A DNA stretch of 32,124 nucleotides. Source: Bacteroidales bacterium. Its GTDB lineage: Bacteria > Bacteroidota > Bacteroidia > Bacteroidales > Muribaculaceae. Positions 1 to 15,829 of the stretch are shown here, in pieces. The notes under the pieces are model-generated. The model was not told where the DNA came from. It searched no databases and saw only the letters and a program-made list of their open reading frames with translations. The DNA lies in NCBI GenBank assembly GCA_020860445.1, contig JAJBUH010000002.1, positions 1-32,124 of the forward strand, given 5' to 3'. Each line of letters begins with the position of its first letter. Positions within the stretch are counted from its first letter, which is position 1. The translations under genes and the position numbers were made by a program.

Positions 1-71
1 TATATAATCCCTTAAAAATCAATCCATTAATTAAATGTAGATAACTTTTTTTGGAAAAAAACATGTTTTGA

Positions 72-103
72 TTTGTAAATTTTGGTAAAAAGCAGTAATT
101 TTG
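72..103 (+). promoter_or_regulatory. Bacteroidetes-type promoter ahead of the dcw cluster
   Basis: TTTG at 72-75, a 20-nt spacer, and TAATTTTG at 96-103 match the Bacteroidetes primary sigma pattern (-33 TTTG, -7 TAnnTTTG). The predicted transcription start is near 110, about 35 nt before the rsmH ATG at 145. It supports that ATG over the TTG at 82, which would lie upstream of the transcript. No mraZ end is visible in bases 1-144, so this may be the first promoter of the cluster or an internal one. Confidence 0.6.
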
Positions 104-144
104 AAGTCGGAAAATCAGCTCGCACCTTTAATCTCAGGAGATTT

Positions 145-1071: not shown

Positions 1072-1451
1072 AAAACTCAAAGGCTAATACCAAAGGGCAG
1101 AAAAAGGGAGCCAAGCGCACCGGCAATGCCAAACAAAGAGTGATACGCACTGGCAAAGGCCTTTTCTACGGAGATGTCCTTTCCAGCACTTTCTTCAGTC
1201 GCTACAAATTCACTGTGGTGCTGGTGATAGGCATGCTTATGCTCTACATCACTTACAAATATGAGTGCCAAACCCACATGGAGACCATAGCTAAACTCGA
1301 AAAAGAATTGACTATAGTCAAGTCGGAAAGCATCAGGGAGCAGAGCACCTACAAGAGCCGCACCCGCGAATCGGCCATGCAGCATCGCATCGACAGCCTC
1401 AACCTGGCTCTCCGACCCCAAGACAAACCACCATATAAAATCAAGTATTAA
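1068..1451 (+). CDS. ftsL: FtsL-like cell division membrane protein
   Basis: This 127-residue bitopic protein has a very basic N-terminal tail (about 45 residues rich in K, R and G), one membrane helix near residues 48-63 (KFTVVLVIGMLMLYITY), and a coiled-coil-like segment (METIAKLEKELTIVKSES) in the periplasmic part. FtsL is poorly conserved. The call rests on this topology plus position between rsmH and ftsI, where ftsL sits in most bacteria. In the divisome FtsL works with FtsB and FtsQ to activate the FtsW-FtsI synthase. The start overlaps the rsmH stop by 4 nt. A heptamer repeat begins directly after its TAA. Confidence 0.75.
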   Translation: MKNSKANTKGQKKGAKRTGNAKQRVIRTGKGLFYGDVLSSTFFSRYKFTVVLVIGMLMLYITYKYECQTHMETIAKLEKELTIVKSESIREQSTYKSRTRESAMQHRIDSLNLALRPQDKPPYKIKY

Positions 1452-1467
1452 GTCAAAAGTCAAAAGT
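1452..1467 (+). repeat. Short heptamer repeat between ftsL and ftsI
   Basis: Two copies of GTCAAAA plus a partial third follow the ftsL stop. This is the complement orientation of the TTTTGAC family that fills other spacers of this cluster. The rest of the gap to ftsI (1468-1527) shows nothing recognisable. Confidence 0.75.
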
Positions 1468-1527
1468 ATTAGATAGGATTTCCTGAAAGGGAAAATTCAA
1501 ATAGATCAAAAGTGACTGAATAGGTAC

Positions 1528-3690
1528 ATGAAGAGTAAGCGCGGACAAATAATATTCAGATACGGTTTGGTGTCGCTCATTATCACTGCCCTGGCATTCG
1601 CAATCGTTTGGCAGGCGGTGAGCACCACTGTCGTGCATGCCGACCAGTGGAACCAAAAAGCCGATTCGGTGCTCAACACCGTATTTTTCGTGCAGCCTAA
1701 GCGCGGAGACATCCTCGCTGCCGACGGCACGGTACTGGCCACCAACCTTACATTATACAATATATGCCTCGACTATCGGGCTTGCGCTCGACACGACTCC
1801 CTCTTTGCTGTCACTATCGACGAACTCAGTGACAGCATGGCCAAATATTACCATCAGCGCAACAAGGAGGAATGGCGCGACTATCTGGCCAAGCCTCTGG
1901 CTAAGAAAGCCTCGGAGCGCAAGCGATATCACGTGCTGCTCAAAAATTCGACTTATGCCGATTACCAGCGTCTCCTGAATTTCCCCTTCTTCAAGGAATA
2001 CAAAAAGAGGTACGACCATGGCCTGTATGCCAATCCCCAAGAGATGCGCATGATGCCCTATGGCTCAATGGCAAAGCGCAGCATTGGCCGCTGCAATTAC
2101 CGCCGTGTGGCCAAATTTGACGGGGCTACCATGTCGAAGGATTCGGCTGATGTGCTGCGCGGTTATTCCGGCTTGGAATATGTCCTGGATTCATTGCTAT
2201 ATGGCCAGGCTGGAACCGCAAAATACATAGCTCTGACCCGAGGAGTGAGGAGCTGGGTAGATCAGCCGGCTGTCGACGGATTCAACCTGCGCACCACCAT
2301 CGATATCAATATGCAAGACATTGTTGAGAACGAGTTGGTAGAGATGTTGCAGAAGACCAAGGCCGAATGGGGCACATGCTTGCTGATGGAGGTTCAGACT
2401 GGTGACATCAAGGCTATCTCAAATCTCGACCGCGACAAGGATGGCAATTACATCGAGGCCATGAATTATGCCTTGCAAGCTTTTGAGCCCGGCTCGGTGA
2501 TGAAGCCCATCTCCATGATTGTGGCCCTCGAGGATAATTTTGCTCCGCTCGACCGTGCCTTCCCTATTGGCAGTTCTTACGCTTATGCCGGTGGCAGTCC
2601 TATTCGAGACACCCACTCGCCAGCCTATCTGCCGGTGAGTCGATTTATCGAGTACTCTTCTAATATCGGCATGACCAAACTCATCGCTCCTCACTATGAG
2701 AATAACCTGAACGGATTCCGTGAGCGTCTGCGCGAACTCGGTTTCTTTGACACCCTGCGCACCGGCATGGCTGGTGAGCGTCCGCCATACTTCCCCACCC
2801 TCGATCCCAAGGCTGGCGGCAAGGTATCGCTCTCGCGCATGTCGTATGGGTATTCTACAATGATTCCGCCGCTATACACTTGCGCTGTCTACAACGCTAT
2901 CGCCAACAAGGGCAAATTCGTAAGGCCGCGCATGGTGCAAGAGATAATAGCTCGCGACGGCAGCTCATCGCGCACGGTGCCGGTGAGCTATGTGCGCGAC
3001 AGTATCTGTTCGCAAAAAAATGCCAACATCCTGATGGATATGCTCTATTCAGTAGTATATGGCGAGGGTGGCACGGCCAAGAGCTTGCGCAACAATATTG
3101 TGCATGTAGTAGGCAAGACAGGTACTTGCCGTATCGCTTATGAGGCTAAGCGCGATTCTACCGGCAAGAAACTTCCGGGCCAAAAGATTGGTTACAAGGA
3201 GGGTCAATATCGATTGGCTTTCTGCGGAGTGTTTCCCTACGAAAATCCCAAATACACCTGCATGGTGCTTATATCTAATCCATCGCCTGAATTCCGTGGG
3301 GCTGCCACGACTTCAGGATTTGTGGTGAAGAATGTGGCGCTCAAGATGTTTGCCCATGGCATGCTTGACCGTCATTCAGATTTCAATGAGGGCACAAATC
3401 CTGGCTCAAATCTGCCCACTATCTATGCTTGCGACCAGCAGACATTTGATGGCGTAAGGGCCATAGCCGGGGTTGAGCGCAGCAAGCACATGAAGGAACC
3501 GGCCAAATTGCAAGAGGGCAAGGTGCCCGATGTGTTGGGCTTGGGTATGCGCGAGGCGTTGGCTAAGATTGAAGATGCCGGGTATGCCATAGTGGCACAC
3601 GGCTCGGGGTATGCCGCCAAGCAGACACCCCCGGCTGGAGCGCCCGCTCGCGCTGGAGATAAAATTACTGTAACATTTTCAACCAGATAG
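1528..3690 (+). CDS. ftsI: Septal penicillin-binding protein (class B transpeptidase) with a C-terminal PASTA domain
   Basis: This 720-residue class B PBP cross-links septal peptidoglycan. A membrane anchor lies at about residues 11-31, followed by the pedestal/dimerisation domain that opens with PKRGDILAADG (57-67). The transpeptidase domain carries the catalytic SxxK as SVMK (323-326, nucleophile Ser323), SxN as SSN (377-379), and KTG at 530-532. A PASTA domain occupies about 665-720 (KVPDVLGLGMREALAKIEDA onward), a feature common in Bacteroidetes FtsI and the related Spo5D-like PBPs. In the dcw context it pairs with FtsW as the septal synthase. The ATG at 1528 is followed by basic residues and the anchor. 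No strong Shine-Dalgarno is visible, as is usual in this phylum. Confidence 0.95.
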   Translation: MKSKRGQIIFRYGLVSLIITALAFAIVWQAVSTTVVHADQWNQKADSVLNTVFFVQPKRGDILAADGTVLATNLTLYNICLDYRACARHDSLFAVTIDELSDSMAKYYHQRNKEEWRDYLAKPLAKKASERKRYHVLLKNSTYADYQRLLNFPFFKEYKKRYDHGLYANPQEMRMMPYGSMAKRSIGRCNYRRVAKFDGATMSKDSADVLRGYSGLEYVLDSLLYGQAGTAKYIALTRGVRSWVDQPAVDGFNLRTTIDINMQDIVENELVEMLQKTKAEWGTCLLMEVQTGDIKAISNLDRDKDGNYIEAMNYALQAFEPGSVMKPISMIVALEDNFAPLDRAFPIGSSYAYAGGSPIRDTHSPAYLPVSRFIEYSSNIGMTKLIAPHYENNLNGFRERLRELGFFDTLRTGMAGERPPYFPTLDPKAGGKVSLSRMSYGYSTMIPPLYTCAVYNAIANKGKFVRPRMVQEIIARDGSSSRTVPVSYVRDSICSQKNANILMDMLYSVVYGEGGTAKSLRNNIVHVVGKTGTCRIAYEAKRDSTGKKLPGQKIGYKEGQYRLAFCGVFPYENPKYTCMVLISNPSPEFRGAATTSGFVVKNVALKMFAHGMLDRHSDFNEGTNPGSNLPTIYACDQQTFDGVRAIAGVERSKHMKEPAKLQEGKVPDVLGLGMREALAKIEDAGYAIVAHGSGYAAKQTPPAGAPARAGDKITVTFSTR

Positions 3691-3732
3691 TTCCCGAATC
3701 TGTTGAATATATTTGGAAAAAACTAAACCGCC

Positions 3733-5205
3733 ATGACACTTAAGGAACTATACAAATCCATAGGAGTTGAACCTCAGCATGGAGACAACGACATACAAGG
3801 CATAACTGCCGACTCGCGCGCCGTGAAACCCGGTTGGCTGTTTGTGGCCGAACCGGGGGTTAATGTCGATGGCCACCAATTCATTAAGGGGGCTGTCGAG
3901 GCTGGCGCTGCCGCTATAGTTTGCAATCATCTGCCAGAGGGGAGCAATGAGCATCCCGAGGTGGAATGGACGGTTGTGCCCGATTCGGCCATAGCTCTCG
4001 GGGCCTTGGCCGATGCTTGGTATGGGCATCCGTCGAGCAAACTGACATTGGTGGGCGTAACTGGCACCAATGGCAAAACCACCATTGCTACCCTGCTCTA
4101 CGATATGGCTCGCTTGATGGGCGAAAAAGCCGGTCTGCTCTCGACTGTCGCCAACAAGATCGAGGATAAGGTATATCCCGCTACTCACACCACACCCGAT
4201 GTGATTACAATACACAAGTTGTTGGCTCAGATGGTTGATGAGGGGTGTACTTTCTGCGCCATGGAGGTCAGCAGCCACGCCTGCCATCAAAAGAGAATAG
4301 CCGGACTGAGATTTGACGGTGGCATATTCACTAATCTCACTCGCGACCATCTCGACTACCATAAGACATTTGCCAACTATCTGGCAGCCAAGAAGAGTTT
4401 CTTTGATGGCCTCTCGCCCGAGGCTTTCGCTCTCACCAATATAGACGACCGCAATGGGTTGGTTATGCTGCAGAATAGTCCGGCTCGCCATTACACCTAT
4501 TCGCAGCGCGCCATGGCCGACTTCAAGGTAAAGGTCATAGAGGATCGTCTCGATGGCATGCTCTTGGCATTTGATGGCCGCGAGGTGGTGACAGCCTTTA
4601 CGGGCGGATACAATGCCTCGAATCTCGCTGCTGTCTACGGAGCCTCGCTTTTGCTGGGCTGGGACAAAGAAGAGGTGTTGGAGAAGATAAGCCGCCTCCA
4701 CCCGGTGGCTGGCCGTATGCAGACCATACACTCGCCATCGGGAGTGACTGCCATTGTCGATTATGCCCATACGCCCGACGCTCTGGTCAACACTCTGGAT
4801 GCTATTATCGAGACCCTAAAATCCGGTGGAAATCCGCAAGGCCATCGCATAATCACTGTGGCCGGCTGTGGGGGCGACCGCGACCATGGCAAGCGTCCGC
4901 TGATGGGAGAGGAGGCTGCCAAGCGCAGCGACTTGCTGGTTATAACCTCAGACAATCCGCGCAGCGAAGACCCGGCTGACATTGCCGCTCAGATGCTGGC
5001 CGGAGTGCCGGAGGATTTGCGCGACCGCACTGTCACCATACTTGACCGCGCCGAGGCCATACGCTACGCATTGCAGCAAGCCGCTCCCGGCGATGCCGTG
5101 CTGATAGCCGGCAAGGGCCACGAGGATTACCAAATCATAGGCTCGGAGAAGCATCATTTTGATGATTGCGAGCAGGTGCGCCAGGCTTTTGGCCTCCCCA
5201 CTTAA
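3733..5205 (+). CDS. murE: UDP-MurNAc-L-alanyl-D-glutamate--meso-diaminopimelate ligase MurE
   Basis: This 490-residue cytoplasmic Mur ligase adds the third residue of the stem peptide using ATP. Visible motifs are the N-terminal substrate site (GITADSRAVKPGWLFVA), the P-loop GTNGKTT (111-117), THTTPD (151-156), and MEVSSHA with the following NLTRDHLDYH block. The specificity motif DNPR (407-410) is the meso-diaminopimelate-selecting form, so the organism should have DAP-type peptidoglycan. GKGHEDYQ near the C-terminus is also typical. The gene lies 42 nt after ftsI. murF does not follow, as is usual in Bacteroidetes clusters, and a heptamer array fills the gap to mraY. Confidence 0.97.
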   Translation: MTLKELYKSIGVEPQHGDNDIQGITADSRAVKPGWLFVAEPGVNVDGHQFIKGAVEAGAAAIVCNHLPEGSNEHPEVEWTVVPDSAIALGALADAWYGHPSSKLTLVGVTGTNGKTTIATLLYDMARLMGEKAGLLSTVANKIEDKVYPATHTTPDVITIHKLLAQMVDEGCTFCAMEVSSHACHQKRIAGLRFDGGIFTNLTRDHLDYHKTFANYLAAKKSFFDGLSPEAFALTNIDDRNGLVMLQNSPARHYTYSQRAMADFKVKVIEDRLDGMLLAFDGREVVTAFTGGYNASNLAAVYGASLLLGWDKEEVLEKISRLHPVAGRMQTIHSPSGVTAIVDYAHTPDALVNTLDAIIETLKSGGNPQGHRIITVAGCGGDRDHGKRPLMGEEAAKRSDLLVITSDNPRSEDPADIAAQMLAGVPEDLRDRTVTILDRAEAIRYALQQAAPGDAVLIAGKGHEDYQIIGSEKHHFDDCEQVRQAFGLPT

Positions 5206-5209
5206 CTCC

Positions 5210-5300
5210 TGACTCTTGACTCTTGACTTTTGACTTTTGACTTTTGACTTGATACTCCCCTCTCCTACGTTATAACTTATCACTTATACTTTATACCTTA
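5210..5300 (+). repeat. In-phase heptanucleotide array between murE and mraY
   Basis: The 91 nt divide into 13 consecutive heptads. They run TGACTCT twice, TGACTTT three times, TGACTTG, then degenerate units (ATACTCC, CCTCTCC, TACGTTA), and finally TAACTTA, TCACTTA, TACTTTA and TACCTTA. Most units keep ACT at positions 3-5. The array starts 4 nt after the murE stop and ends 6 nt before the mraY ATG, so essentially the whole spacer is repeat. It leaves no room for a Shine-Dalgarno beyond AGG at 5304-5306. Confidence 0.85.
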
Positions 5301-5306
5301 CATAGG

Positions 5307-6557
5307 ATGCTTTACTATTTAATGCAAGCCTTAGGCGAACTCGACCTGCCCGGAGGGCGCCTGATTACATACATAACGGTGCGCTCGGGGTTAGCCTTCG
5401 TGCTGGGGATGCTTATAGCCATTTTCATCGGTCGCAAAATCATACAGCGTTTGCAGCTGATGCAAGTGGGCGAGATAGTGCGCAATCTGGGTCTCGAAGG
5501 CCAGATGGCCAAAAAAGGCACTCCTACTATGGGCGGTGTGATAATCCTGATATCCACCTTGGTGCCATGCTTATTGGTAGCTAATCTGAGCAATGTATAT
5601 ATGCTGTTGCTGTTGTTTGCCACCCTTTGGCTTGGCATGATCGGTTTTATCGATGACTACAAGAAACTGCAGAAACATAATAAAGACGGCATCAAGGGCA
5701 AGTACAAAATCATCGGTCAGGTGGGCATAGCCCTGATTGTGGCCGCTGTGATGTACCTCAATCCCAATATGGGCATTGTCGAAAACAAGGAGATCCTGAG
5801 CCCTGACACGAATCGTGTGGAAGAAGTGGTGTATGAAGACGAATTGGTTAAGACCCCGCAGACCACCATACCGTTTGTCAAAAACAACAACTTCAACTAT
5901 TCATGGCTCACCGAATGGATGGGCAAATACGCTGAGACGGGCGGATGGATAGCTTTCTTCCTGGTCACTGTATTTTTGGTGACAGCTACCAGCAACGGCG
6001 CCAACCTAACCGATGGCTTGGATGGCTTGGCGTGCGGCTTGTCGGCCATCAATGGCACTGCCCTCGCCATCATGGCTTATCTCGGCAGCAACATCATATA
6101 TTCCTCTTACCTCAACATCATGTACATACCGGGCTCGGAGGAGATGGTGGTGTATATGGCTGCTTTGGTGGGAGCCTTGGTAGGATTCCTGTGGTACAAT
6201 GCGGCTCCAGCGCAGGTGTTTATGGGCGATACTGGCTCGCTGATGCTTGGCGGCATTATTGCCATATTCGCAATCCTCACTCGCAAGGAATTGTTGTTGC
6301 CGATTTTGTGCGGCATATTTTACATAGAAGATTTGTCGGTGATGGTGCAAGTGGCTTATTTCAAGCGCACTGGAGGCAAGCGCATATTCAAAATGACGCC
6401 TCTGCACCACCATTTCCAAATGGCTGGAAACAGCGGCATACAGGCCTTGATACAGAGGCCGCTGCAACCTATACCCGAATCAAAGATAGTGACGCGATTT
6501 TGTATTATTGGCATTATTCTTGCCGTAATCACATTCGTAACATTGAAAATTAGATAA
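5307..6557 (+). CDS. mraY: Phospho-N-acetylmuramoyl-pentapeptide-transferase MraY
   Basis: This 416-residue polytopic membrane enzyme transfers phospho-MurNAc-pentapeptide to undecaprenyl phosphate, forming lipid I. Diagnostic motifs are KKGTPTMGG (69-77), the Mg-binding DDYKK (116-120), NLTDGLDGLA (233-242), MGDTGS (306-311) and HHHF (367-370). About ten hydrophobic segments are present. A long polar stretch at about residues 155-210 (NKEILSPDTNR to TEWMGKYAETGG), facing the periplasm, is typical of Bacteroidetes MraY. Residues about 374-390 add a short loop before ESKIVTRF. murD follows after only 2 nt, so the two are probably translationally coupled. Confidence 0.97.
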   Translation: MLYYLMQALGELDLPGGRLITYITVRSGLAFVLGMLIAIFIGRKIIQRLQLMQVGEIVRNLGLEGQMAKKGTPTMGGVIILISTLVPCLLVANLSNVYMLLLLFATLWLGMIGFIDDYKKLQKHNKDGIKGKYKIIGQVGIALIVAAVMYLNPNMGIVENKEILSPDTNRVEEVVYEDELVKTPQTTIPFVKNNNFNYSWLTEWMGKYAETGGWIAFFLVTVFLVTATSNGANLTDGLDGLACGLSAINGTALAIMAYLGSNIIYSSYLNIMYIPGSEEMVVYMAALVGALVGFLWYNAAPAQVFMGDTGSLMLGGIIAIFAILTRKELLLPILCGIFYIEDLSVMVQVAYFKRTGGKRIFKMTPLHHHFQMAGNSGIQALIQRPLQPIPESKIVTRFCIIGIILAVITFVTLKIR

Positions 6558-6559
6558 TT

Positions 6560-7903
6560 ATGAAGCGATTGGTAGTGCTGGGAGCTGGCGAAAGCGGAGC
6601 CGGCGCAGCAGTGTTAGGCAAAGATAAAGGCTGGGAGGTGTTTGTGAGCGACTATGGCAAAATCGCTCCCGAGCACAAGCAACTGCTCGAGGCCGAAGGC
6701 ATCGAGTGGGAGGAGGGCCATCATTCGATGGACCGCATACTTATGGCCGATGAGGTGGTGAAGAGCCCCGGCATCCCATTGGATGCCCCGGTGATTAAGC
6801 AAATCAACGAGAAGGGAATCCATGTGATTTCTGAAATTGAGTTCGCATCGCGCTACACCGATGCCAAGATGGTGTGCATCACTGGCAGCAATGGCAAGAC
6901 TACCACCACTCTGCTTACCTATCACATACTCAAGGCCGCTGGCCTGAATGTAGGCTTGGCCGGAAATGTAGGCAAAAGTCTCGCCCTGCAAGTGGCTCGC
7001 GAGAATTTTGATGTGTATGTGATTGAGTTGAGCAGTTTCCAGCTCGACAATATGTATGACTTCCGCGCCAACATAGCCGTGATACTCAACATCACTCCCG
7101 ACCACCTGGACCGCTATGACCATAAGATGGAAAATTACGTGAGAGCCAAATTCCGCATACTGCAGAACATGACTCCCATGGATGCTTTCATCTATTGGCA
7201 GGACGACCCCGTAGTGGCTGCCCAGATGCGCCAGATGCAGATTGAGACCCAGATGTATCCATTTGCCGAGCATAAGGAGGAGAATACTGCCGCTTATGTC
7301 GATGCAGAGAATAATCTGATCATCAATACCCCTGACAATCATCTGTCGATGCCTCGGGCTGACTTGGCGCTCAACGGATTGCACAACCTGTACAATTCAA
7401 TGGCTGCTGGCATCTCTGCCTCGCTGTTGGATATCCGCAATGAGGTTATCAAGAAAGCCCTATCGGATTTTCAGGGCGTGGAGCATCGCCTCGAGCCTTG
7501 CGGCGAGGTTGACGGCGTGAAGTACATCAACGATTCCAAGGCTACAAATGTAAACTCGACATGGTATGCCTTGGAGAGCATGACCACACCCACAGTGCTG
7601 ATTCTTGGCGGCAAGGACAAGGGCAACGATTACTCAGAAATCTTGCCATTGGTCAAAGAAAAGGTGGTTGGCATCGTAGCCATGGGCAAGGACAATGACA
7701 AGATTATGAAATTCTTTGACGGTGTGGTGCCTACGGTGGATACTCATTCGTTGGCTGACGCTATCGAGGCATGCCGCAAGATGGCCAAGCCGGGACAGAC
7801 AGTATTGCTCTCGCCCTGCTGCGCCAGCTTTGACCTCTTTGACAATTACGAGGATCGCGGCCGCAAATTCAAAGCCGCAGTAGCAACACTAAGTCAAAAG
7901 TAA
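6560..7903 (+). CDS. murD: UDP-N-acetylmuramoyl-L-alanine--D-glutamate ligase MurD
   Basis: This 447-residue cytoplasmic Mur ligase adds D-Glu to UDP-MurNAc-L-Ala. Evidence is the Rossmann-like opening VVLGAGESGAGAA, the P-loop GSNGKTTTT (109-117), ELSSFQLD, the NITPDHLDRY block, YINDSKATN, LGGKDKG and the C-terminal LSPCCASFDLFDNYEDRG, all standard MurD motifs. Length is normal. The start lies 2 nt after the mraY stop. The last four codons (L-S-Q-K) and the stop are encoded by a heptamer-type repeat also present downstream of ftsW, so the extreme C-terminus is probably repeat-derived. Confidence 0.97.
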   Translation: MKRLVVLGAGESGAGAAVLGKDKGWEVFVSDYGKIAPEHKQLLEAEGIEWEEGHHSMDRILMADEVVKSPGIPLDAPVIKQINEKGIHVISEIEFASRYTDAKMVCITGSNGKTTTTLLTYHILKAAGLNVGLAGNVGKSLALQVARENFDVYVIELSSFQLDNMYDFRANIAVILNITPDHLDRYDHKMENYVRAKFRILQNMTPMDAFIYWQDDPVVAAQMRQMQIETQMYPFAEHKEENTAAYVDAENNLIINTPDNHLSMPRADLALNGLHNLYNSMAAGISASLLDIRNEVIKKALSDFQGVEHRLEPCGEVDGVKYINDSKATNVNSTWYALESMTTPTVLILGGKDKGNDYSEILPLVKEKVVGIVAMGKDNDKIMKFFDGVVPTVDTHSLADAIEACRKMAKPGQTVLLSPCCASFDLFDNYEDRGRKFKAAVATLSQK

Positions 7904-7915
7904 TCAAGTCAAAAG
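7891..7915 (+). repeat. 25-nt repeat copy overlapping the murD stop
   Basis: These 25 bases are identical to 9295-9319 and belong to the AAGTCAA heptamer family. The copy includes the last murD codons and TAA stop (7901-7903) and runs into the ribosome binding site of ftsW. With the other copy it brackets ftsW as a direct repeat. Confidence 0.9.
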
Positions 7916-7922
7916 GGAGGAG
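7915..7922 (+). promoter_or_regulatory. Strong Shine-Dalgarno deciding the GTG start of ftsW
   Basis: GGGAGGAG lies 3 nt before GTG 7926. A clear Shine-Dalgarno is unusual in this window. It supports GTG as the ftsW start, because no in-frame ATG precedes the first membrane helix. Confidence 0.65.
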
Positions 7923-7925
7923 ATA

Positions 7926-9293
7926 GTGGAGACGACTACTAATACAACTATAAATGCAGCTGAAGCCCGAGCAAAGGCCGAACAGGCACTGCTTGAGATA
8001 CAGCCACGACGCACCGACAAGCAGATATGGGGCATTTATATTGCTCTGTGCCTGATATCGGTGGTTGAGCTATACAGCGCCTCGAGCCACGAAATCACAG
8101 CATCCAACGTGTTCGCTCCGGTGCTGCGCCATGTGATGTTCTTGATTGGCGGACTGGCCATCATGCTAATCTTGCAAAAGACTCACTATAGCAAATTCCT
8201 GAAATGGAGTTATCTGTTTGCCATATTGAGCGCTGTTGCCATGCTCTATACTTTGAAATACGGCGACTATATCAACGGCGCACGACGCAGTTTTTCGGTA
8301 GGCGGATTCTTTGCCATACAACCGGCTGAGATGGTCAAGATTTCGGCTGTGCTTGTGATAGCTGGCATCTTGTCGCGCTCGCAAATGCGCAAGAGCGCCG
8401 ATGTCACCACCCGAGGATTGATTCAGGTGACACTGTGCGTGCTGATGGCAAGCGGTTTGCTCTTTACCCAAGGCTTGACAAATACGCTGCTGCTGATGGC
8501 AATCAGCTTGTCGATGATGCTGATTGGCGGAGTGAGCTGGAAAAAGATGGGCATTGTGCTTGGCGTGTTCATCATCTTGGCGGGCTTTGGATTTGGAGTG
8601 AAATCGGTGATAGAGGGTTTCTCAAATCCCGAGGTCACCCAGGTGCAAAAAGAGTTGGTGGTGCCCGGCACCAATATCACTGTTGGAGTTGACAAGGTCG
8701 ATGATGGCAAGAAAAATTCTATTGGGCGCTGGTCGACCTGGGAAAATCGCGTGGCTCGCCATTTCAAAAGCGACAAATACAACGATCCCATATCTGACAT
8801 GAATCAGCAAGAGCAATATTCCTACATAGCTCAAGCTCACGGCGGTATCTTTGGGGTAATGCCCGGAAATTCCCGCGAGACAGCCCGACTGCCACTGGCA
8901 TTCTCTGATTACATCTACGCTATCGTAATCGAAGAGATGGGCCTATTGGGAGGACTGTTTGTGCTGGTGATGTACTTGTGGCTATTGGCGCGCGCTGGCC
9001 GCATAGCCAATCGATGCCAGACTGCCTATCCGGCCCTGCTGGTGATAGGCATGGCGGTGTTCATAGCTTTTCAGGCTATGGCCCACATGGCGATAGTCAC
9101 CGGGGTATTCCCGGTATCGGGGCAACCCCTGCCGCTGATATCCAAGGGAGGCACCTCGATATTGATAACGTCGATGGCTCTGGGTATTATGCTCAGTGTG
9201 AGTCGTTTTGCCGCTCGCAAGGGCAAAAAATCAGAGATACGTGATGAACTCTCGGCCCTCCCCGACGAGGTCAAAGCCGCCAACCCCACATAA
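7926..9293 (+). CDS. ftsW: SEDS peptidoglycan glycosyltransferase FtsW
   Basis: This 455-residue SEDS-family polytopic protein polymerises septal glycan strands from lipid II with FtsI. A 34-residue polar N-terminus is followed by about ten membrane helices. Family marks are YSASS after the first helix, NGARRSFSVGGFFAIQPAEMVK (the SEDS G-x-R-x(5)-G-x(5)-QPxEhxK block), and PVSGQPLPLISKGGTS near the C-terminus. The usual tryptophan in the G-x-R-W-i segment is replaced by serine. A long extracellular loop at about residues 235-300 is typical for Bacteroidetes. It starts with GTG, supported by the Shine-Dalgarno at 7915-7922. Heptamer repeats flank the gene on both sides. Confidence 0.95.
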   Translation: METTTNTTINAAEARAKAEQALLEIQPRRTDKQIWGIYIALCLISVVELYSASSHEITASNVFAPVLRHVMFLIGGLAIMLILQKTHYSKFLKWSYLFAILSAVAMLYTLKYGDYINGARRSFSVGGFFAIQPAEMVKISAVLVIAGILSRSQMRKSADVTTRGLIQVTLCVLMASGLLFTQGLTNTLLLMAISLSMMLIGGVSWKKMGIVLGVFIILAGFGFGVKSVIEGFSNPEVTQVQKELVVPGTNITVGVDKVDDGKKNSIGRWSTWENRVARHFKSDKYNDPISDMNQQEQYSYIAQAHGGIFGVMPGNSRETARLPLAFSDYIYAIVIEEMGLLGGLFVLVMYLWLLARAGRIANRCQTAYPALLVIGMAVFIAFQAMAHMAIVTGVFPVSGQPLPLISKGGTSILITSMALGIMLSVSRFAARKGKKSEIRDELSALPDEVKAANPT

Positions 9294-9294
9294 C

Positions 9295-9366
9295 AAGTCA
9301 AAAGTAATCAAGTCAAAAGTCAAAAGTGACAAGTCAAAAGTAATCAAACCAAAAATAACAAGTAAG
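9295..9366 (+). repeat. Heptamer array between ftsW and murG
   Basis: Tandem units AAGTCAA, AAGTAATC, AAGTCAA, AAGTCAA, AAGTGAC, AAGTCAA, AAGTAATC, AAACCAA, AAATAAC and AAGTAAG run directly from the ftsW stop. Two units are 8 nt and the rest 7. The first 25 nt are identical to 7891-7915. This is the reverse orientation of the TTGACTT arrays before mraY and ftsA. Confidence 0.85.
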
Positions 9367-9393
9367 GCAGCCAGCCGTATGTCGGCTACTGTT

Positions 9394-9414
9394 CTGGGCC
9401 ATTTAATGGCCCAG
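9394..9414 (+). other. Perfect hairpin in the murG leader
   Basis: CTGGGCCAT, loop TTA, ATGGCCCAG form a 9-bp perfect stem 16 nt before the murG ATG. A weaker 5-bp hairpin (AGCCG, loop, CGGCT) lies just before it at 9373-9387. No T-run follows, so this is more likely an mRNA stability, processing or translation-control structure than a terminator. Confidence 0.55.
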
Positions 9415-9430
9415 CCAATAAAATAAGAAT

Positions 9431-10534
9431 ATGCGAGCCTTAATAAGCGGAGGAGGCACCGGCGGACACATTTTCCCCGCCCTCTCAATAGCAAATGCAC
9501 TGCGACGCCGCTACCCCAATGTGGAGATCCTGTTTGTGGGGGCGGAAAATCGCATGGAGATGCAGCGGGTACCCGCTGCCGGTTACGAAATAATAGGTCT
9601 GCCGGTGGCAGGCTTTGACCGTAAGCGCCCTTGGCGAAATATCAAGGTGCTGTGGCTGCTCTGGAAGTCGATGCGCAAGGCCAAAAAGGTGGTGCGCGAC
9701 TTCCATCCCGACATAGCCATAGGCGTGGGCGGCTTTGCCAGCGGCCCAACCCTCAAGGCTGCCCAGAAAGCCGGAGTACCTACACTGCTGCAAGAGCAAA
9801 ATTCCTATCCCGGGGTCACCAACAAGATATTGGCTAAGAATGCCGAGGCTATATGTGTGGCTTACGAGGGATTGGAAACTTTCTTTCCCGGTGAGAAGAT
9901 TATCCTCACTGGCAATCCGGTGCGCAAGGATCTCACTTCTTGCCCATTTAATACGCGCGAAGCCAAGGCTCATCTCGGATTCGACCCAGAGAAACCCTTG
10001 GTGCTTGTGGTGGGAGGCAGCTTAGGAGCTCGCACCATCAATCAGAGCATGAAAGCCGGCCTCGACAAATTCGCCAAGGCTGGGGTGCAAGTCCTATGGC
10101 AGACCGGCCAATACGGAGCCGAGGAATGGGCCAAAGCAGCCGCTGATGTGCCTCTGGTCGAGGCTACCCAATTCATAACAGACATGGCTACCGCATATCG
10201 GGCTGCCGACTTGGTAGTGGCACGCGCCGGTGCCGGAACAATCAGCGAACTCGAAATCTTGGGCAAACCCACAATCTTGGTGCCATCGCCCAATGTGGCT
10301 GAGGACCATCAGCGCAAAAACGCCAAGGCTCTGGCTGACCGTGGAGCTGCGGTGATGATTCTCGATATCGATGCTCCAGCACAGATGGTCGACAAGGCCA
10401 TCGAGTTGGTCAAGGATAATGAGGCCCTGTATGAGTTGGGCGAAAATATTGAGAAGCTGGCATTGCCAGACGCTGATGAAAAGATAGTAGATATAATTAC
10501 ACAGATATGGAAGCAAAAAGGGTGTATTTCGTAG
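9431..10534 (+). CDS. murG: UDP-GlcNAc--lipid I N-acetylglucosaminyltransferase MurG
   Basis: This 367-residue GT28 enzyme works on the inner face of the membrane and adds GlcNAc to lipid I, giving lipid II. The N-terminus has the signature GGGTGGHIFPA (about residues 7-17). GVGGFASGPTLKAA and LQEQNSYPGVTNK are standard, as are the C-terminal donor-site motifs VVGGSLGARTIN, ARAGAGTISEL and PSPNVAEDHQRKNA. Length is normal. The ATG lies just after the hairpin at 9394-9414. The 3' end overlaps murC by 28 nt. Confidence 0.97.
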   Translation: MRALISGGGTGGHIFPALSIANALRRRYPNVEILFVGAENRMEMQRVPAAGYEIIGLPVAGFDRKRPWRNIKVLWLLWKSMRKAKKVVRDFHPDIAIGVGGFASGPTLKAAQKAGVPTLLQEQNSYPGVTNKILAKNAEAICVAYEGLETFFPGEKIILTGNPVRKDLTSCPFNTREAKAHLGFDPEKPLVLVVGGSLGARTINQSMKAGLDKFAKAGVQVLWQTGQYGAEEWAKAAADVPLVEATQFITDMATAYRAADLVVARAGAGTISELEILGKPTILVPSPNVAEDHQRKNAKALADRGAAVMILDIDAPAQMVDKAIELVKDNEALYELGENIEKLALPDADEKIVDIITQIWKQKGCIS

Positions 10535-11880
10535 GAATAGGCGGCATAGGCATGGCCGCTCTCGCCCGCTATTATTTGTCAAAGGGATACTCGGTGGCTG
10601 GATACGACCGGGCACCCTCGGCTCTTACCCACGCTCTCGAACACGAAGGCGCTGTCATAAGCTATGAAGATTCGCTTGAGGCTATACCCGAGGAGTTTCG
10701 CACCCCCGGTAGCGCTCTGGTAGTCTACACTCCGGCGGTGCATCCCGGCAACGTGCCACTCGATTATTTCAACGCCCATCAGTTCCCGGTGCTGAAACGC
10801 TCGGCTGTGCTCGGCCTCATCACCAAGGGCTCAAAGGGCCTGTGCTTTGCCGGCACTCATGGCAAGACCACAACCTCGTCGATGGCTGCCCATATATTGC
10901 ACAATTCGCCGGTTGGTTGCAACGCATTCCTTGGTGGCATACTGCGCAATTATGACAGCAATCTGCTGCTGAGCGACACATCGCCATACTCAGTGATTGA
11001 GGCTGACGAGTATGACCGCTCATTCCATACCCTGATGCCCTATATCGCAGTGATTACTGCTACCGACCCCGACCATCTCGATGTCTACGGCAATGAGGAG
11101 AATTATCTTGAGAGTTTTGCTCACTTCACTGAGTTGATACGCCCCGATGGTTACCTGATTATCCACGAGGGCCTCAAGCTCAAGCCGCGTCCTGCCGCTA
11201 CGGTCAAGACTTATACTTACAGCCGCGACCATGGCGATTTCCATGCTGAGAATGTGTGCTATGGCAATGGCACTATCGTCTTCGACTTTGTGGCTCCCGA
11301 CACTGTGATTCGCGATGTCGAGCTGGGCGTGCCAGTCGAGATCAATATCGAAAACGCCATCGCCGCTATGGCTGCTTGCCATCTCACGGGCCAGGCGTCG
11401 GAGGAATGCATGCGCTGCGCTATGGCTACATTCCAGGGCGCCGAGCGCCGCTTCCAGTTCATGCTCAAGGAGCCGGGCCAGAATGGCCGCGTAATCATAG
11501 ATGACTATGCCCACCACCCTGATGAGCTGAAAACCAGCATTCGCTCGGTGCGCCAGCTCTATCCCGACCGTAAACTCACTGTGGCTTTCCAGCCCCATCT
11601 CTATAGCCGCACCCGTGATTTCGCACCGCAGTTCGCTGAGGCTCTGTCGATGGCCGACGAGGTGGTGCTCACCGATTTGTACCCAGCTCGCGAGGCCCCA
11701 ATCCCCGGAATTTCGTCAAAAACTATCTTCGATTTGGTAAATTGTCGAGAAAAATCGTTAATTTCCAAAGAAGATTTTGTAAAGACGATGAAAAATCGTA
11801 ACTTTGAAGTCTTATTATCGTTGGGGGCTGGAGATTTGTCGACATATCTGCCCCAATTAGTGAAGGAACTTAAGAATTGA
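10507..11880 (+). CDS. murC: UDP-N-acetylmuramate--L-alanine ligase MurC
   Basis: This 457-residue ligase adds the first amino acid, L-Ala, to UDP-MurNAc. Motifs are the nucleotide-fold opening VYFVGIGGIGM (10-15 is GIGGIG), the P-loop GTHGKTTTS (116-124), EADEYDRSF, TDPDHLD, RRFQ, the IIDDYAHHP signature and FQPHLYSRT. Length is typical. It begins inside murG (28-nt overlap) and its stop overlaps the TTG start of ftsQ as TTGA, so murG-murC-ftsQ are probably translated in a coupled way. Confidence 0.97.
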   Translation: MEAKRVYFVGIGGIGMAALARYYLSKGYSVAGYDRAPSALTHALEHEGAVISYEDSLEAIPEEFRTPGSALVVYTPAVHPGNVPLDYFNAHQFPVLKRSAVLGLITKGSKGLCFAGTHGKTTTSSMAAHILHNSPVGCNAFLGGILRNYDSNLLLSDTSPYSVIEADEYDRSFHTLMPYIAVITATDPDHLDVYGNEENYLESFAHFTELIRPDGYLIIHEGLKLKPRPAATVKTYTYSRDHGDFHAENVCYGNGTIVFDFVAPDTVIRDVELGVPVEINIENAIAAMAACHLTGQASEECMRCAMATFQGAERRFQFMLKEPGQNGRVIIDDYAHHPDELKTSIRSVRQLYPDRKLTVAFQPHLYSRTRDFAPQFAEALSMADEVVLTDLYPAREAPIPGISSKTIFDLVNCREKSLISKEDFVKTMKNRNFEVLLSLGAGDLSTYLPQLVKELKN

Positions 11881-12722
11881 CTAAGCAAGGAGTAATAAGA
11901 TGCGTGTTGTCGCTGTTGCTCACGGCCTATCTGGTTGTGGCCCTTTGCTACGCTTCGCAGCAGGCAGCGGCCGACCCCTACCGAGCCCTCAAGATTTATG
12001 TTGAGGGCAATTCGGCAGGCGGTTTTGTCACGCCCGATGACATACGCCACGAGCTCGGCTCGCTCAGCCGCGACATCACTCGCCTGCCAGCCGATTCGAT
12101 CAACACTCTGGCGATTGAGAAGCGCATCCTTGCCATGGACAATATCGAAACCGCCAATTGCGTGGTGCTCAACAATCGCACTCTTGCCCTGACCGTTGAG
12201 CCGTTGGTGCCGGCCGCTCGCATATTCGACACATCGACTGGTTCTAATTTCTACATCAACCGCTCGGGCAAGCGCATGAAGGCCAATGCTCGCTATCGCC
12301 TCGATGCCCCAGTGGTGGTGGGTCGATTCAGCGACAAAGTACAGCCGACCGATGCCCTGCCAGTGATTGATTACATTAACTCGCGCCAGGATCTCACGGA
12401 TTTGGTCAGTTCGATCAAGGTTACCCCCAAGGGCGACATTCTGTTGATTCCTCGCATTCGCGGCCATGTGATAAATTTTGGAGATTCGTCAGACATCGCC
12501 AACAAATTTGACCGCTTGCTGGCGTTTTATCGCCAAGTGATGCCCGTCAAGGGCTGGGAGTATTACGATACCCTGTCGGTGAAATGGCGAGGCCAGGTAG
12601 TGGCTAAACAGCGCAACAAGGCCCTGGAGCCGCAGCCTGACCTGGTGGGCGATGAGGAATACATTGATGATCCCGGCACCATGATGGCCACCACCGATAG
12701 TCCCCTCACCGATATGCAATAG
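11877..12722 (+). CDS. ftsQ: Cell division protein FtsQ
   Basis: This 281-residue bitopic protein has a short basic N-tail, one membrane helix (CVLSLLLTAYLVVALCYAS, about residues 9-27), then a periplasmic POTRA-like region beginning KIYVEGNSAGGFVTPDDIRH. The C-terminal block YYDTLSVKWRGQVVAKQR is characteristic of Bacteroidetes FtsQ. FtsQ links the early Z-ring complex with FtsL/FtsB and FtsW/FtsI. The start is uncertain. The given TTG overlaps the murC stop (TTGA) and keeps the basic residues before the helix. AAGGAG at 11887-11892 could instead serve GTG 11904. The ATG at 11900 is out of frame. ddl, found here in proteobacteria, is absent. Confidence 0.88.
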   Translation: MTKQGVIRCVLSLLLTAYLVVALCYASQQAAADPYRALKIYVEGNSAGGFVTPDDIRHELGSLSRDITRLPADSINTLAIEKRILAMDNIETANCVVLNNRTLALTVEPLVPAARIFDTSTGSNFYINRSGKRMKANARYRLDAPVVVGRFSDKVQPTDALPVIDYINSRQDLTDLVSSIKVTPKGDILLIPRIRGHVINFGDSSDIANKFDRLLAFYRQVMPVKGWEYYDTLSVKWRGQVVAKQRNKALEPQPDLVGDEEYIDDPGTMMATTDSPLTDMQ

Positions 12723-12737
12723 GTACATTATGATTTA

Positions 12738-12834
12738 TCACTCTTAACTTATCACTCTTGACTTCTAACTTCTCCTCTTGACTTTTGACTTTTGACTTTT
12801 GACTTGTTACTCTTGACTTTTGACTTTTGACTTG
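12738..12834 (+). repeat. Fourteen-unit heptanucleotide array between ftsQ and ftsA
   Basis: The spacer is an almost unbroken heptad run. In order the units are TCACTCT, TAACTTA, TCACTCT, TGACTTC, TAACTTC, a 6-nt TCCTCT, TGACTTT three times, TGACTTG, TTACTCT, TGACTTT twice and TGACTTG. Consensus is TNACTYT with ACT fixed at positions 3-5. It ends 3 nt before the ftsA ATG, so the whole ribosome docking region of ftsA is repeat sequence. Confidence 0.9.
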
Positions 12835-12837
12835 TTT

Positions 12838-14325
12838 ATGGACAATAGATACATAATAGCATTAGAGCTCTCTGGCTCACAAGTAAAAGGCGCTGCGGCC
12901 ACTATCAACTCTACGCCCGCCTATTCGCAATTTGCCATCCCCGTCGTCGAGGCTATCGCCTGTGAGGATAAGGTCAATTGCGTGCAGTACGGGCGTGTGC
13001 AAAATCTCATTGAGGCTGCCAAGGATGTTAATTATGTGGTGAAGAAACTTGAGAACGATCCCAAGCTCAAAGGCGGAAAAGTCATTGCCGCTTATGTGGG
13101 CATCAGCGGTCGTTCGCTCGGCTCGGTCCAAACCACGGCTGAACTGTATCTGCCCAGTGAAATGGAGATTACCGCCAACATAGTTAAGCAACTTGAACAA
13201 GAGGCCGCTAAGGGATTGGATGCCGATAGGAAGCCTCTGAGGATAGTGCCTCGCAAATTCTATGTTGACAACCAGGTTAATCCTAATCCGGTGGGCGCTC
13301 TGGGCTCAAAGCTCAAGGGCGAATACACTGTTGTGACTTGCAACAAGGCCAACCTGCGCAATCTGGAGATGCTGTTTGGCGACCGCTTGCAGCTCACTGT
13401 GCGCGAGTATGTGGTGACACCGCTCGCCGTGGCCGACCTATTGCTGAGCCAGGAAGAGCGCCAGTTGGGCTGCATGCTCGTGGATATGGGCGCTCAGACC
13501 ACTACCATATCGATTTACAAGGACCGCGCTCTGCAGTATCTGGCCACTCTGCCGCTTGGCTCGCAGAATATAACACGCGACATAGCCATGGGCCTCAATA
13601 TCATCGAGGAGCGTGCTGAGATGGCAAAATGCCATCAGGGCAACGCTATGGCCGATTCTATGGAATCGGCCTCGGATGAGAATGCCAAGATCAATTGCTA
13701 TGTGCAAGCGCGCATTGGCGAAATCAATGCCAATATCTATGCCCAGATAGGCTATGCCGGATTCAAGCCTACTGACTTGGCCGGAGGCATCATAATCACT
13801 GGCCGTGGCTCTAAGCTGCGCAATTTTGACATGGCCCTTGAAAACAAGACAAAGATGAAGGTGCGCCGCGCCTCAATCCCCAACACTATCACAGTGCAAG
13901 ACCGAGGCATCGATTCTGCCGACTTCGCTTCGCTCTTGGCCATTGTGTTGCAAGCCTCAAAGACTACAGATGTTGGGGGTTGCGTCAAGGCTCCCGAGCC
14001 AGCTGATATCAGCCTGGAGGAAAAGCCGGCATTTGGAGCTGGCCCGTCGCCTGTCCACGAAGAGGACAACAACGATGACGGTTGGGACAACGATGACGAG
14101 GAGAATGCCCAAATTGACGAGCGTCGTGAGCGCGCAATGCGTCGCAAAGCCGAGAAAGAGGCTGCCAAGCGCGCCAAGGAGGAGCAGAAAAGACGTGAGC
14201 GGGAGGAGCGCGAACTCGCGCGCCAGCAGCGTCCACGCTCGTCGGCTCTCGATTGGCTCAGAAACAAGATATACCAGGTGACCGCCTCAAACGATGATGA
14301 GGATGCCAACCTCGATGACAATTAA
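12838..14325 (+). CDS. ftsA: Cell division actin-like protein FtsA
   Basis: This 495-residue actin-fold ATPase tethers FtsZ filaments to the inner membrane. The N-terminal phosphate-1 region reads IALELSGSQVKGA, the SHS2/1C insert contains AYVGISGRS, the phosphate-2 motif is MLVDMGAQTTTISIY, and the adenosine motif is GGIIITGRGSKLRN. After the actin core comes an acidic then strongly basic, probably helical linker (about 410-470, rich in E, K and R). It ends near an amphipathic helix, SALDWLRNKIYQV, the likely membrane-binding element, and a further acidic tail. ATG 12838 is preferred over a TTG at 12820 that lies inside the repeat array. No Shine-Dalgarno is visible. Confidence 0.95.
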   Translation: MDNRYIIALELSGSQVKGAAATINSTPAYSQFAIPVVEAIACEDKVNCVQYGRVQNLIEAAKDVNYVVKKLENDPKLKGGKVIAAYVGISGRSLGSVQTTAELYLPSEMEITANIVKQLEQEAAKGLDADRKPLRIVPRKFYVDNQVNPNPVGALGSKLKGEYTVVTCNKANLRNLEMLFGDRLQLTVREYVVTPLAVADLLLSQEERQLGCMLVDMGAQTTTISIYKDRALQYLATLPLGSQNITRDIAMGLNIIEERAEMAKCHQGNAMADSMESASDENAKINCYVQARIGEINANIYAQIGYAGFKPTDLAGGIIITGRGSKLRNFDMALENKTKMKVRRASIPNTITVQDRGIDSADFASLLAIVLQASKTTDVGGCVKAPEPADISLEEKPAFGAGPSPVHEEDNNDDGWDNDDEENAQIDERRERAMRRKAEKEAAKRAKEEQKRREREERELARQQRPRSSALDWLRNKIYQVTASNDDEDANLDDN

Positions 14326-14373
14326 CCAAAATTATAGGGAATATTGAATATCCCCTCCCCTCTATATAGTTAT

Positions 14374-14401
14374 TCACTATTCACTATTCACTATTACTTT
14401 A
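14374..14401 (+). repeat. TCACTAT heptamer repeat before ftsZ
   Basis: Three exact TCACTAT units (14374-14394) plus TACTTTA precede the ftsZ ATG by 5 nt. The unit differs from the TGACTTT arrays but keeps heptad length and ACT at positions 3-5. An imperfect hairpin (GGGAATATT / AATATCCC, 14337-14354) lies upstream in the same ftsA-ftsZ spacer. Confidence 0.75.
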
Positions 14402-14406
14402 AGTAT

Positions 14407-15771
14407 ATGACTTCCGAAGATATAAGCAGCACCCACGACTTCTCGTTGGGCCCCGTTGCCTCCTCAGCAAATTCCTATTCGCCCCAAAAGATCAAGGTGA
14501 TCGGCGTGGGCGGCGGTGGCAACAATGCCATTGACCACATGTACAATATGGGCGTGAGGAATGTGTCGTTTATCGTGGCCAATACTGATAGGCAGGCGTT
14601 GGCTAATTCGCCTGTGCCCACCAAGGTGCTCCTGGGTCCCACTACCCTGAGGGGTCGAGGCGCTGGCAACCGCCCCGAGCGTGCCCGCATGGCGGCCGAG
14701 GAGAGTGCCCAGGACATCGACAATCTGTTTGACGATGATACCGATATGGTGTTTATCACCGCCGGCATGGGCGGTGGCACTGGCACTGGCGCCTCGCCGG
14801 TGATAGCCCGCATAGCCAGAGAGAGGGGCCTCCTCACCATTGGCATTGTCACTATTCCATTCCTGTTTGAGGGCCAGCGCAAAATCCTTAAGGCTCTGGA
14901 TGGCGCTAATGAGATGAGCAAGTATGTCGATGCCCTGTTGGTGATCAACAACGAGCGCTTGTCTGAGATTTACAAAGAGCTTGACTTCCTCAATGCTTTT
15001 GGTAAGGCCGATGATATCCTATCGATGGCCGCTATCAGCATCTCTGAGATTGTGACATGCGACGGCTACATCAACCTCGACTTCAACGATGTTGACAACA
15101 CTCTGCGCGATGGTGGCACGGCCATCATCTCGACTGGTTATGGCGAGGGCGAGAATCGTGTGCGCAAGGCTATCGATGATGCCCTACACTCGCCGTTGCT
15201 GCGCAACACCGACATCTTTGGCAGTCGCAAGCTGCTCTTTAATCTCTATTTCTCAAGAGATGCCGACGACAAGTTTAAGATTGACGAGACCAAGCAGATC
15301 ACTGAGTTTATCTCAAACATCGACAAGGATGTTGATGTGATTTGGGGTGTGGCATTTGACGAGACTCTTGGCAACAAGGTTAAATTCACCATCCTCGCTG
15401 CTGGCTTTGATGTGACTATCTCAGACGAGAATGTGATTAAGGGCACTGACGTGGCAGATGGACGCGTTGAGAGCGATGAGATAGCTCGCAAGACCGAGCA
15501 GCGCTTGGTGCAAGAGTATGGCTCCAAGATGGATGATTTCAATATCAAGAAGGAGGAGCAGAAATACATCATCCTCAAACCAGAGCAATTTGATGATGAC
15601 CGCATGATTGAAATCATCGAGCAAAATCCCGCCTACAATCGCAGCCGCGAGGTCAAGCAAGCCATCGCCTCAGCCGCCTCAGCCAATCCCAAACCTGCCT
15701 CCAACCCCCAATCTTCCAATCCTTCCTTCCAATCTGGAAGCAAGACCACCATCAGTTTCGACGACTTCTAA
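14407..15771 (+). CDS. ftsZ: Cell division GTPase FtsZ
   Basis: This 454-residue tubulin homologue polymerises into the Z-ring. The GTP-binding domain has IGVGGGGNNAI near residue 35, the tubulin signature GMGGGTGTGASP, and the T7 loop NLDFNDVDN, which completes the GTPase site of the neighbouring subunit. A disordered proline/serine/asparagine-rich linker follows (ASAASANPKPASNPQSS), ending in the C-terminal peptide TTISFDDF, the likely FtsA-binding tail. ATG 14407 is chosen over the open upstream extension to 14344, which encodes only spacer-like sequence. It ends the dcw cluster and is followed by a hairpin terminator. Confidence 0.98.
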   Translation: MTSEDISSTHDFSLGPVASSANSYSPQKIKVIGVGGGGNNAIDHMYNMGVRNVSFIVANTDRQALANSPVPTKVLLGPTTLRGRGAGNRPERARMAAEESAQDIDNLFDDDTDMVFITAGMGGGTGTGASPVIARIARERGLLTIGIVTIPFLFEGQRKILKALDGANEMSKYVDALLVINNERLSEIYKELDFLNAFGKADDILSMAAISISEIVTCDGYINLDFNDVDNTLRDGGTAIISTGYGEGENRVRKAIDDALHSPLLRNTDIFGSRKLLFNLYFSRDADDKFKIDETKQITEFISNIDKDVDVIWGVAFDETLGNKVKFTILAAGFDVTISDENVIKGTDVADGRVESDEIARKTEQRLVQEYGSKMDDFNIKKEEQKYIILKPEQFDDDRMIEIIEQNPAYNRSREVKQAIASAASANPKPASNPQSSNPSFQSGSKTTISFDDF

Positions 15772-15790
15772 ATCATCCCTTACAAAACTA

Positions 15791-15817
15791 CGAGCGAGGC
15801 CTATTAGGTCTCGCTCG
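15791..15817. terminator. Hairpin terminator after ftsZ, shared with the opposing island
   Basis: CGAGCGAGGCCT, loop ATT, AGGTCTCGCTCG form a 12-bp stem with one G-U pair. On the + strand a T-rich stretch follows, ending ftsZ. On the - strand TAGTTTTG follows, ending the frameshifted gene whose stop is at 15830. The same hairpin plus its CAAAACTA flank recurs at 17576-17610. Confidence 0.75.
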
Positions 15818-15829
15818 TCTAATCTTTCT

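Follow-up and report, generated by a model that had tools for sequence, protein, structure and literature searches.

Heptamer arrays in the dcw cluster

The window examined here is a 32,124-nucleotide (nt) stretch from a Bacteroidales bacterium of the family Muribaculaceae (GenBank assembly GCA_020860445.1, contig JAJBUH010000002.1). It forms contig C14 of a 4.14-Mb draft genome (G000; 281 contigs, 98.2% complete) and carries a division and cell wall (dcw) gene cluster, several gaps of which hold tandem arrays of 7-nt units (Table 1). NCBIfam agreed with the gene names for the ten proteins tested, with ftsI, ftsW, murC, and ftsA scoring under the curated cutoff and thus representing best-fit or positional calls. 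An initial annotation of this DNA had proposed that one heptamer family, in both orientations, occupies six spacers of a single operon. Five of these spacers do contain arrays (before ftsI, mraY, murG, ftsA, and ftsZ), oriented as described (TGACTTT type before mraY and ftsA, AAGTCAA before ftsI and murG), with a variant array before ftsZ and with ACT or AGT retained in nearly every unit. The AAGTCAA reported before ftsW is present as a single unit: this spacer (7904-7925) holds one AAGTCAA plus AAG, and no array. In a sister species (genome G012), the corresponding spacer is 85 nt longer and does contain an array, with AGT-type repeats flanking a hairpin on both sides.

Table 1. Coordinates of the dcw cluster and of the repeats and hairpins within and beside it
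Feature	Position	Strand	Basis
dcw cluster: rsmH, ftsL-like, ftsI, murE, mraY, murD, ftsW, murG, murC, ftsQ-like, ftsA, ftsZ	145..15771	+	gene calls; NCBIfam matches of ten proteins; position alone for ftsL and ftsQ
2.6-copy AAGTCAA array in front of ftsI; overlaps the ftsL stop codon	1450..1467	- (ACT strand)	tandem-repeat search and direct reading
Array of ~7 TGACTTT/TGACTCT (also CTTGACT) copies in front of mraY; overlaps the murE stop codon	5201..5256	+	tandem-repeat search and direct reading
Lone AAGTCAA unit in the murD-ftsW gap	7906..7912	-	direct reading
Imperfect AAGTCAA array (6.6 copies) in the ftsW-murG gap, 3' of the ftsW stop codon	9295..9341	-	tandem-repeat search and direct reading
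Double hairpin, GC-rich, next to the murG-leader array	9366..9416	.	spacer fold -29.7 kcal/mol, z -4.6
TTGACTT/TCACTCT arrays reaching the ftsA start codon	12735..12836	+	tandem-repeat search and direct reading
TATTCAC array, 3.6 copies, before ftsZ	14367..14399	+	tandem-repeat search and direct reading
Terminator-like hairpin 3' of ftsZ	15790..15818	+	terminator scan

Positions 1-14401 contain four strict arrays (at least 13 of 14 period-7 matches), compared with a mean of 0.005 and a maximum of 1 in 200 first-order Markov simulations; the short ftsI array and the imperfect murG array fall under this strict limit. Five of the six dcw spacers folded no better than shuffled sequences, and the mraY and ftsA leaders were unstructured. 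Only the murG spacer folded better, owing to the separate GC-rich hairpin rather than the array. Part of this hairpin resembles, by eye, a core found inside hairpins elsewhere in the genome, and no T-tract follows it. A terminator scan of positions 1-16500 retrieved a sole plus-strand site outside genes, the hairpin 3' of ftsZ, which probably marks the end of the operon; none was found on this strand in the array-bearing gaps. A minus-strand site lies within the ftsA-ftsZ gap (14336-14356). A promoter scan of the operon gave 28 sites, compared with 18.1 in shuffles.

Abundance, orientation, and pairing across the genome

The arrays are not peculiar to the dcw operon. We surveyed 882 kb, comprising 536 kb from G000, with the window, and 345 kb from G012, with its dcw region, using a simple codon-usage script to call genes, whose edges are therefore approximate. 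This sample contained 97 period-7 arrays, while periods of 5, 6, 8, 9, 10, 11, and 13 gave 0, 0, 6, 8, 15, 0, and 1, respectively. Although 71% of the sampled sequence was called as coding, only 2 of the 97 arrays lay more than half within genes, as delimited by this crude caller. Arrays are thus not equally common inside genes, the pattern that the initial annotation had associated with slippage only. The 156,554 spacer bases held 80 arrays; 20 simulations yielded none. Nor is there one heptamer family, as had been proposed, but several that coexist: ATTTTTC (35 arrays), ACTTTTG (13), ACTATTC (13), ACTCATA (8), ACTTATT (8), and ACCAAAA (4), with the remainder at 3 or fewer each. Runs of three G are absent from both strands of all 17 units listed. 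G000 has 119 + 74 copies of the exact TGACTTT 14-mer TGACTTTTGACTTT and none of its backwards reading.

The short tandemly repeated repetitive (STRR) sequences of cyanobacteria are likewise tandem heptanucleotides dispersed in gaps between genes, and the analogy drawn in the initial annotation is borne out. Head-to-tail heptanucleotides with a period of 7 are enriched here and are dispersed in gaps rather than genes, and exact TGACTTT arrays also occur in cyanobacterial genomes among the matches listed. The present arrays differ from STRR sequences in their host phylum, in comprising several A/T-rich unit families, and in the hairpin pairing documented below. Contigs of the G000 draft were also observed to terminate within heptamer arrays (L031:5914-5968 and L043:5420-5476); the assembly is therefore probably interrupted by the arrays, whose number would be underestimated.

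Orientation relative to genes proved nonrandom in the sample. For the 88 arrays with both neighboring genes in the stretch, we scored the strand reading AYY (ACT, ATT, or ACC), a score chosen after inspecting the arrays; this strand read towards the nearest gene edge in 68/88 cases overall and in 47/51 within 15 nt (17/19 at starts, 30/32 at stops). Other scores gave similar polarity within 15 nt (45:5 for C over G, 43:8 for pyrimidine content). The TGACTTT family was analyzed separately, using a random sample of 14 arrays (13 usable) and a targeted set of 56 (2 in called genes, 50 usable). At start codons its polarity is firm, with 31/33 arrays oriented towards the start by nearest edge and 18/18 within 15 nt. 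The stop-codon rule derives mainly from the ATTTTTC family (18/20 within 60 nt). We considered whether a filter against stop codons could generate the polarity. Read in the ACT direction, TGACTTT contains a stop codon, whereas ATTTTTC, ACTATTC, and ACTTATT have one only in the opposite direction; because all of these units mostly read ACT towards start codons, such a filter fails to explain all of them.

Polarity was also assessed in other taxa, using named genomes, cyanobacterial and other, with matches to (TGACTTT)3 (at least 113 stretches, with results from 80 of these). Of the 211 arrays in these loci, 77 adjoined the end of a stretch, 22 fell within called genes, and 40 lacked ACT; these were set aside. 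ACT-bearing arrays read towards the gene in 23/24 cases within 15 nt and in 48/72 over all distances. ACT was present in 40/97 units of other taxa, above chance (0.21-0.26). The broader proposition that AYY is common to all units was rejected, as 75/97 is no more than chance (0.67-0.84). On a 250-kb stretch of Nostoc plasmid with 15 arrays of other units, the C-rich strand read towards the gene in 6/6 cases within 50 nt and 11/15 overall (script-called genes).

Repeat arms were present in 68 of 378 gaps of the G000 and G012 sample, distributed as 53/287 codirectional, 9/43 convergent, and 6/48 divergent gaps. Thus, there is no clear enrichment in intra-operon gaps, and the view that the six dcw spacers form a unit of their own is not supported. 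In 20 gaps an ACT-type arm lay no more than 130 nt 3' of an AGT-type arm (RRT..AYY pairs); the reverse order was never found. Pairing was proportionately most frequent in array-bearing convergent gaps (8/9), as opposed to 11/53 codirectional and 1/6 divergent gaps (convergent versus codirectional, Fisher P = 1.6e-4). The complementarity of paired arms was 22.9, compared with a mean of 17.5 and a highest value of 18.9 for 20 shuffles of partners, and five hand-chosen paired gaps folded with z scores of -7.6 to -14.4. Gap length outside the repeats did not convincingly separate paired from single arms (P = 0.054). Single arms in codirectional gaps were mostly AGT sense on the stop side (18, versus 5 ACT sense) and ACT sense on the start side (20, versus 3 AGT sense). 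The same arm order recurred at the 80 loci from other taxa (5 to 0).

Many arm pairs enclose the core CCATCCGGATGG, which sits in hairpins whose arms belong to three or more families. Every one of the 20 sampled copies lies in a gap, 13 of them beside period-7 sequence; several other copies cap an unrelated palindrome whose arms are CACAGATT. Across 49 genomes of the genus, the core is present in 75 copies in G000, 94 in G012, 7 in G047, one each in three others, and none in 43; the backwards control gave one match, in G022.

Turnover between sister species and distribution

The proteins of the dcw cluster are 94-100% identical between G000 and G012, and 32 orthologous genes have a mean DNA identity of 94%. 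Among the 23 orthologous gaps that could be compared, 8 bear arrays in one or both genomes, and 5 of these 8 have been rebuilt. The ftsL-ftsI and ftsW-murG gaps hold different unit families in the two genomes, and the 22-nt murD-ftsW gap of G000 is contained whole within the 107-nt gap of G012. In the two rebuilt gaps outside dcw, cores were swapped or arms had grown. Other array-bearing gaps changed by whole units: the murE-mraY gap differs by 35 nt (five units) and the ftsQ-ftsA gap by +7 and -7, while the ftsA-ftsZ gap is near identical (79 matches of 81 or 82). Array-free dcw gaps have hardly changed (41 of 42 nt and 23 of 23 nt match).

Several palindromes also differ between the sister genomes. 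Two G000 gaps (L187:11427-11668 and 12599-12839) hold palindromes with tandem CACAGATT arms that are absent from the orthologous G012 gaps, and palindromes containing the words CACGGAG, CCTTTGTG, and ACGTAAGC occur in one or both genomes. Near the end of the window (30808-30845), the 9-nt unit AACACGGAG occurs in four copies, and this word recurs in the CACGGAG palindromes elsewhere. Beside one AAGTCAA array (L042:4479-4582 and L208:16658-16744), the hairpin sequence has been swapped between the sisters and the tail TTTCAAATAG retained; a tail resembling it is also present in the G012 murD-ftsW gap.

Within the genus, abundance of the TGACTTT 14-mer is limited to this sister pair. TGACTTTTGACTTT was found in 6 of 99 genomes searched (G000 included); among the 49 genomes of the genus, besides G000, G012 has 116 + 53 copies, G041 has 9 + 4, and the other 46 have none. 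Across the order, (TGACTTT)3 was retrieved from 8 of 393 genomes (G000 included), with ten matches in G342 and one or two in each of the others besides G000. These searches detect one unit only, and other heptamers escape them. The dcw gaps exceeding 60 nt number 5/11 in G000 and 6/11 in G012; among 19 other congeners, 11 have none and the remaining 8 have 1 to 4, some of their clusters being incomplete. No arrays were found in the dcw gaps of 16 of these 19. The two genomes are also larger (4.1 Mb for G000 and 4.5 Mb for G012) than those of the 47 other congeners (1.8-2.9 Mb).

Further afield, (TGACTTT)3 occurs, among the matches listed, in many cyanobacterial genomes, Flavobacterium, Patescibacteria, other Bacteroidota, and some further groups. 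Spread by phages was rejected; a viral collection gave 13 and 4 stretches for two patterns. The backwards control pattern of the order-wide search matched 15 times in G198 and 8 times in G291; these Bacteroidales thus carry arrays of a different heptamer, TTTCAGT. A further congener, G035 (L167), which has no TGACTTT arrays, carries its own heptamers (ATTCATA-like and AAGGATA/AAGGATT) in its murE-mraY and ftsA-ftsZ gaps.

Origin and possible role of the arrays

Taken together, the genome-wide spread, the avoidance of genes, the polarity at starts, the pairing of arms, the fast turnover, and the 7-nt indels lead us to favor, at roughly even confidence, a burst of STRR-like heptamer arrays in the sister pair, driven by slippage and sorted by selection for position and orientation. 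Arrays would start as short seeds between genes, grow and shrink by whole 7-nt units, and be quickly rebuilt, with genes spared because arrays within them would be harmful. Selection might then sort the arrays by place and direction. Before start codons, the ACT-sense, unstructured orientation would survive; between convergent genes, A-rich and T-rich arrays would be kept as matching arms on either side of a GC-rich tip, yielding long hairpins that resemble bidirectional terminators. Judged by sequence, the hairpins in 8 of 9 array-bearing convergent gaps, and also those in 11 codirectional gaps, are candidates for such terminators. In dcw and other operons, the arms left would mostly be single and unstructured, and transcription is therefore not expected to stop there. 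The single arms in dcw are probably tolerated passengers, although a mild effect on translation may exist. Because they are genome-wide, polar, and fast changing, the arrays look like a burst of a known but unexplained repeat class rather than a cell division switch.

Several observations weigh against this interpretation. Its growth mechanism (slippage), its cause of polarity (selection), and terminator action are all extrapolated from the patterns described above. The TGACTTT family is unpolarized at stops (15/30 by nearest edge, 11/17 within 15 nt); one simple polarity rule therefore does not hold for all families, and a strict rule treating starts and stops alike is weakened. There is no evident reason why an AGT-oriented TGACTTT array before a start codon should be harmful. 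Terminator-like sites in positions 1-16500 show no excess (16 versus 15.2 in shuffles), and paired hairpins are in absolute terms more numerous in codirectional (11) than in convergent gaps (8). The burst is not strictly limited to the sister pair, since heptamers, mostly of other units, also occur in dcw gaps of G035 and G041 (two array-bearing gaps each) and of G014 (one short array). Loss of palindrome or mismatch repair was rejected as the cause: SbcD is above the cutoff in both G000 and G012, and MutS1 is full length in G012 (the draft G000 gave only a partial match, taken for MutS2).

A role in gene expression, with leader arrays serving as posttranscriptional sites for an RNA-binding protein of the S1, cold-shock, or CsrA type, is conceivable but unlikely. 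A close precedent is the TAACTGA repeat, found before start codons in Beggiatoaceae, with some also in Cyanobacteria and five Bacteroidetes; translational regulation in Beggiatoaceae was suggested as a proposal in the available part of that report (MacGregor 2015, PMC4679880), and the repeat is also counted in the part seen of a later Thiomargarita genome paper (PMC4853749). The portions of MacGregor's account at hand describe an intergenic, ACT-containing heptamer that is forward just before start codons and patchy over some of the same phyla, with shorter-gap relatives that have no obvious repeats, much as here; the TGACTTT family, at 31/33, matches this forward placement, and the unstructured mraY and ftsA leaders would suit RNA binding. 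Single-base variants of TAACTGA are, in the same portions, rare as repeats in the main genome studied. The present arrays depart from that system in their many coexisting unit families, their hairpin-pairing arms, and their replacement between sister species inside a division gene cluster. It is difficult to reconcile a binding site with a unit family or whole array that has been swapped before the same gene (ftsI and murG), or with arrays that also occur 3' of stop codons and in convergent gaps. We know of no protein that binds such arrays, although no search aimed at one was made.

We consider it improbable that the arrays are arms of a mobile palindromic element that inserts into gaps, with single arms as remnants. 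Such elements, like repetitive extragenic palindromic (REP) sequences, miniature inverted-repeat transposable elements (MITEs), and intrinsic terminators, share with the present structures the form of intergenic hairpins with T-rich 3' arms, some of them lying between convergent genes; the likeness to terminators is one of sequence and predicted folding. The concentration of CCATCCGGATGG in two of 49 genomes, its presence in hairpins of several arm families and in the unrelated CACAGATT palindrome, and the presence of whole CACAGATT palindromes in two G000 gaps but not in their G012 counterparts count in favor of mobility. However, the same core bears different arms and arms occur without the core, which argues against one element moving whole. 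The arms are moreover 7-nt tandem arrays, unlike those of REP sequences or MITEs, no target duplication or linked transposase has been shown for them, and no clear target duplication was seen at the L187 palindromes that are present in one sister and absent from the other. A REP-associated tyrosine transposase was rejected as the source, as Y1_Tnp matches occur in 33/49 genus genomes with no correspondence to array content.

Alternatively, unlike heptamers in Bacteroidota, Cyanobacteria, Patescibacteria, and, from published work, Xanthomonas may follow a single strand polarity relative to gene edges and a single arm order. This would speak for an undescribed process, common to these taxa, in which 7-nt arrays are generated starting at gene edges or hairpin tips, rather than for separate local selection. 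The near-gene counts in other taxa (23/24), the common arm order (5:0), and the Nostoc plasmid (6/6) speak for such a process. It is weakened by the TGACTTT arrays at stop edges in G000 and G012 and by the 48/72 over all distances in other taxa, and we regard it as a long shot. Neutral slippage with no selection beyond loss from genes would accommodate the 7-nt indels and fast turnover but is very unlikely, because array orientation is not random (47/51 near genes; 20 to 0 in arm order) and paired arms occur in convergent gaps. Templated addition by a telomerase-like reverse transcriptase such as DRT10, which produces tandem-repeat cDNA with 9-nt units in one system according to the section consulted of PMC12632851, is scarcely credible given the coexistence of several unit families; RVT_1 had no match in the 98.2%-complete G000 and only weak matches in G012, and a reverse-transcriptase origin was rejected.

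The favored burst of selected arrays can also be set against the GGGNATC and GGGGA(C/T)T heptamers of Xanthomonas and Nostoc, for which quadruplexes were discussed and no function was found, as far as the accessible text of Rehm 2015 (PMC4692102) extends. According to the same text, these repeats, like ours, are noncoding, are underrepresented between divergent genes, and vary in length and sequence among close relatives; their polarity is of the same kind, with the G-rich strand sense after stops and antisense before starts. As the units described here have no runs of three G, their polarity speaks against quadruplexes as the general cause of placement. Our search for literature on heptamer repeats with Bacteroidetes found only PMC4692102 and PMC4679880, most subscription papers lying outside it; the literature seen, in part, on intergenic heptamer arrays of cyanobacteria and others offers no agreed function or origin. 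The sister pair, with near-identical genes and rapidly replaced arrays against a background of congeners with few or none, thus constitutes a natural experiment on array origin, and the polarity at start codons makes array direction directly testable by reporter. Elsewhere in the window, positions 31227-31412 matched the SbcD phosphoesterase family weakly (E value of 7e-4, under the cutoff).

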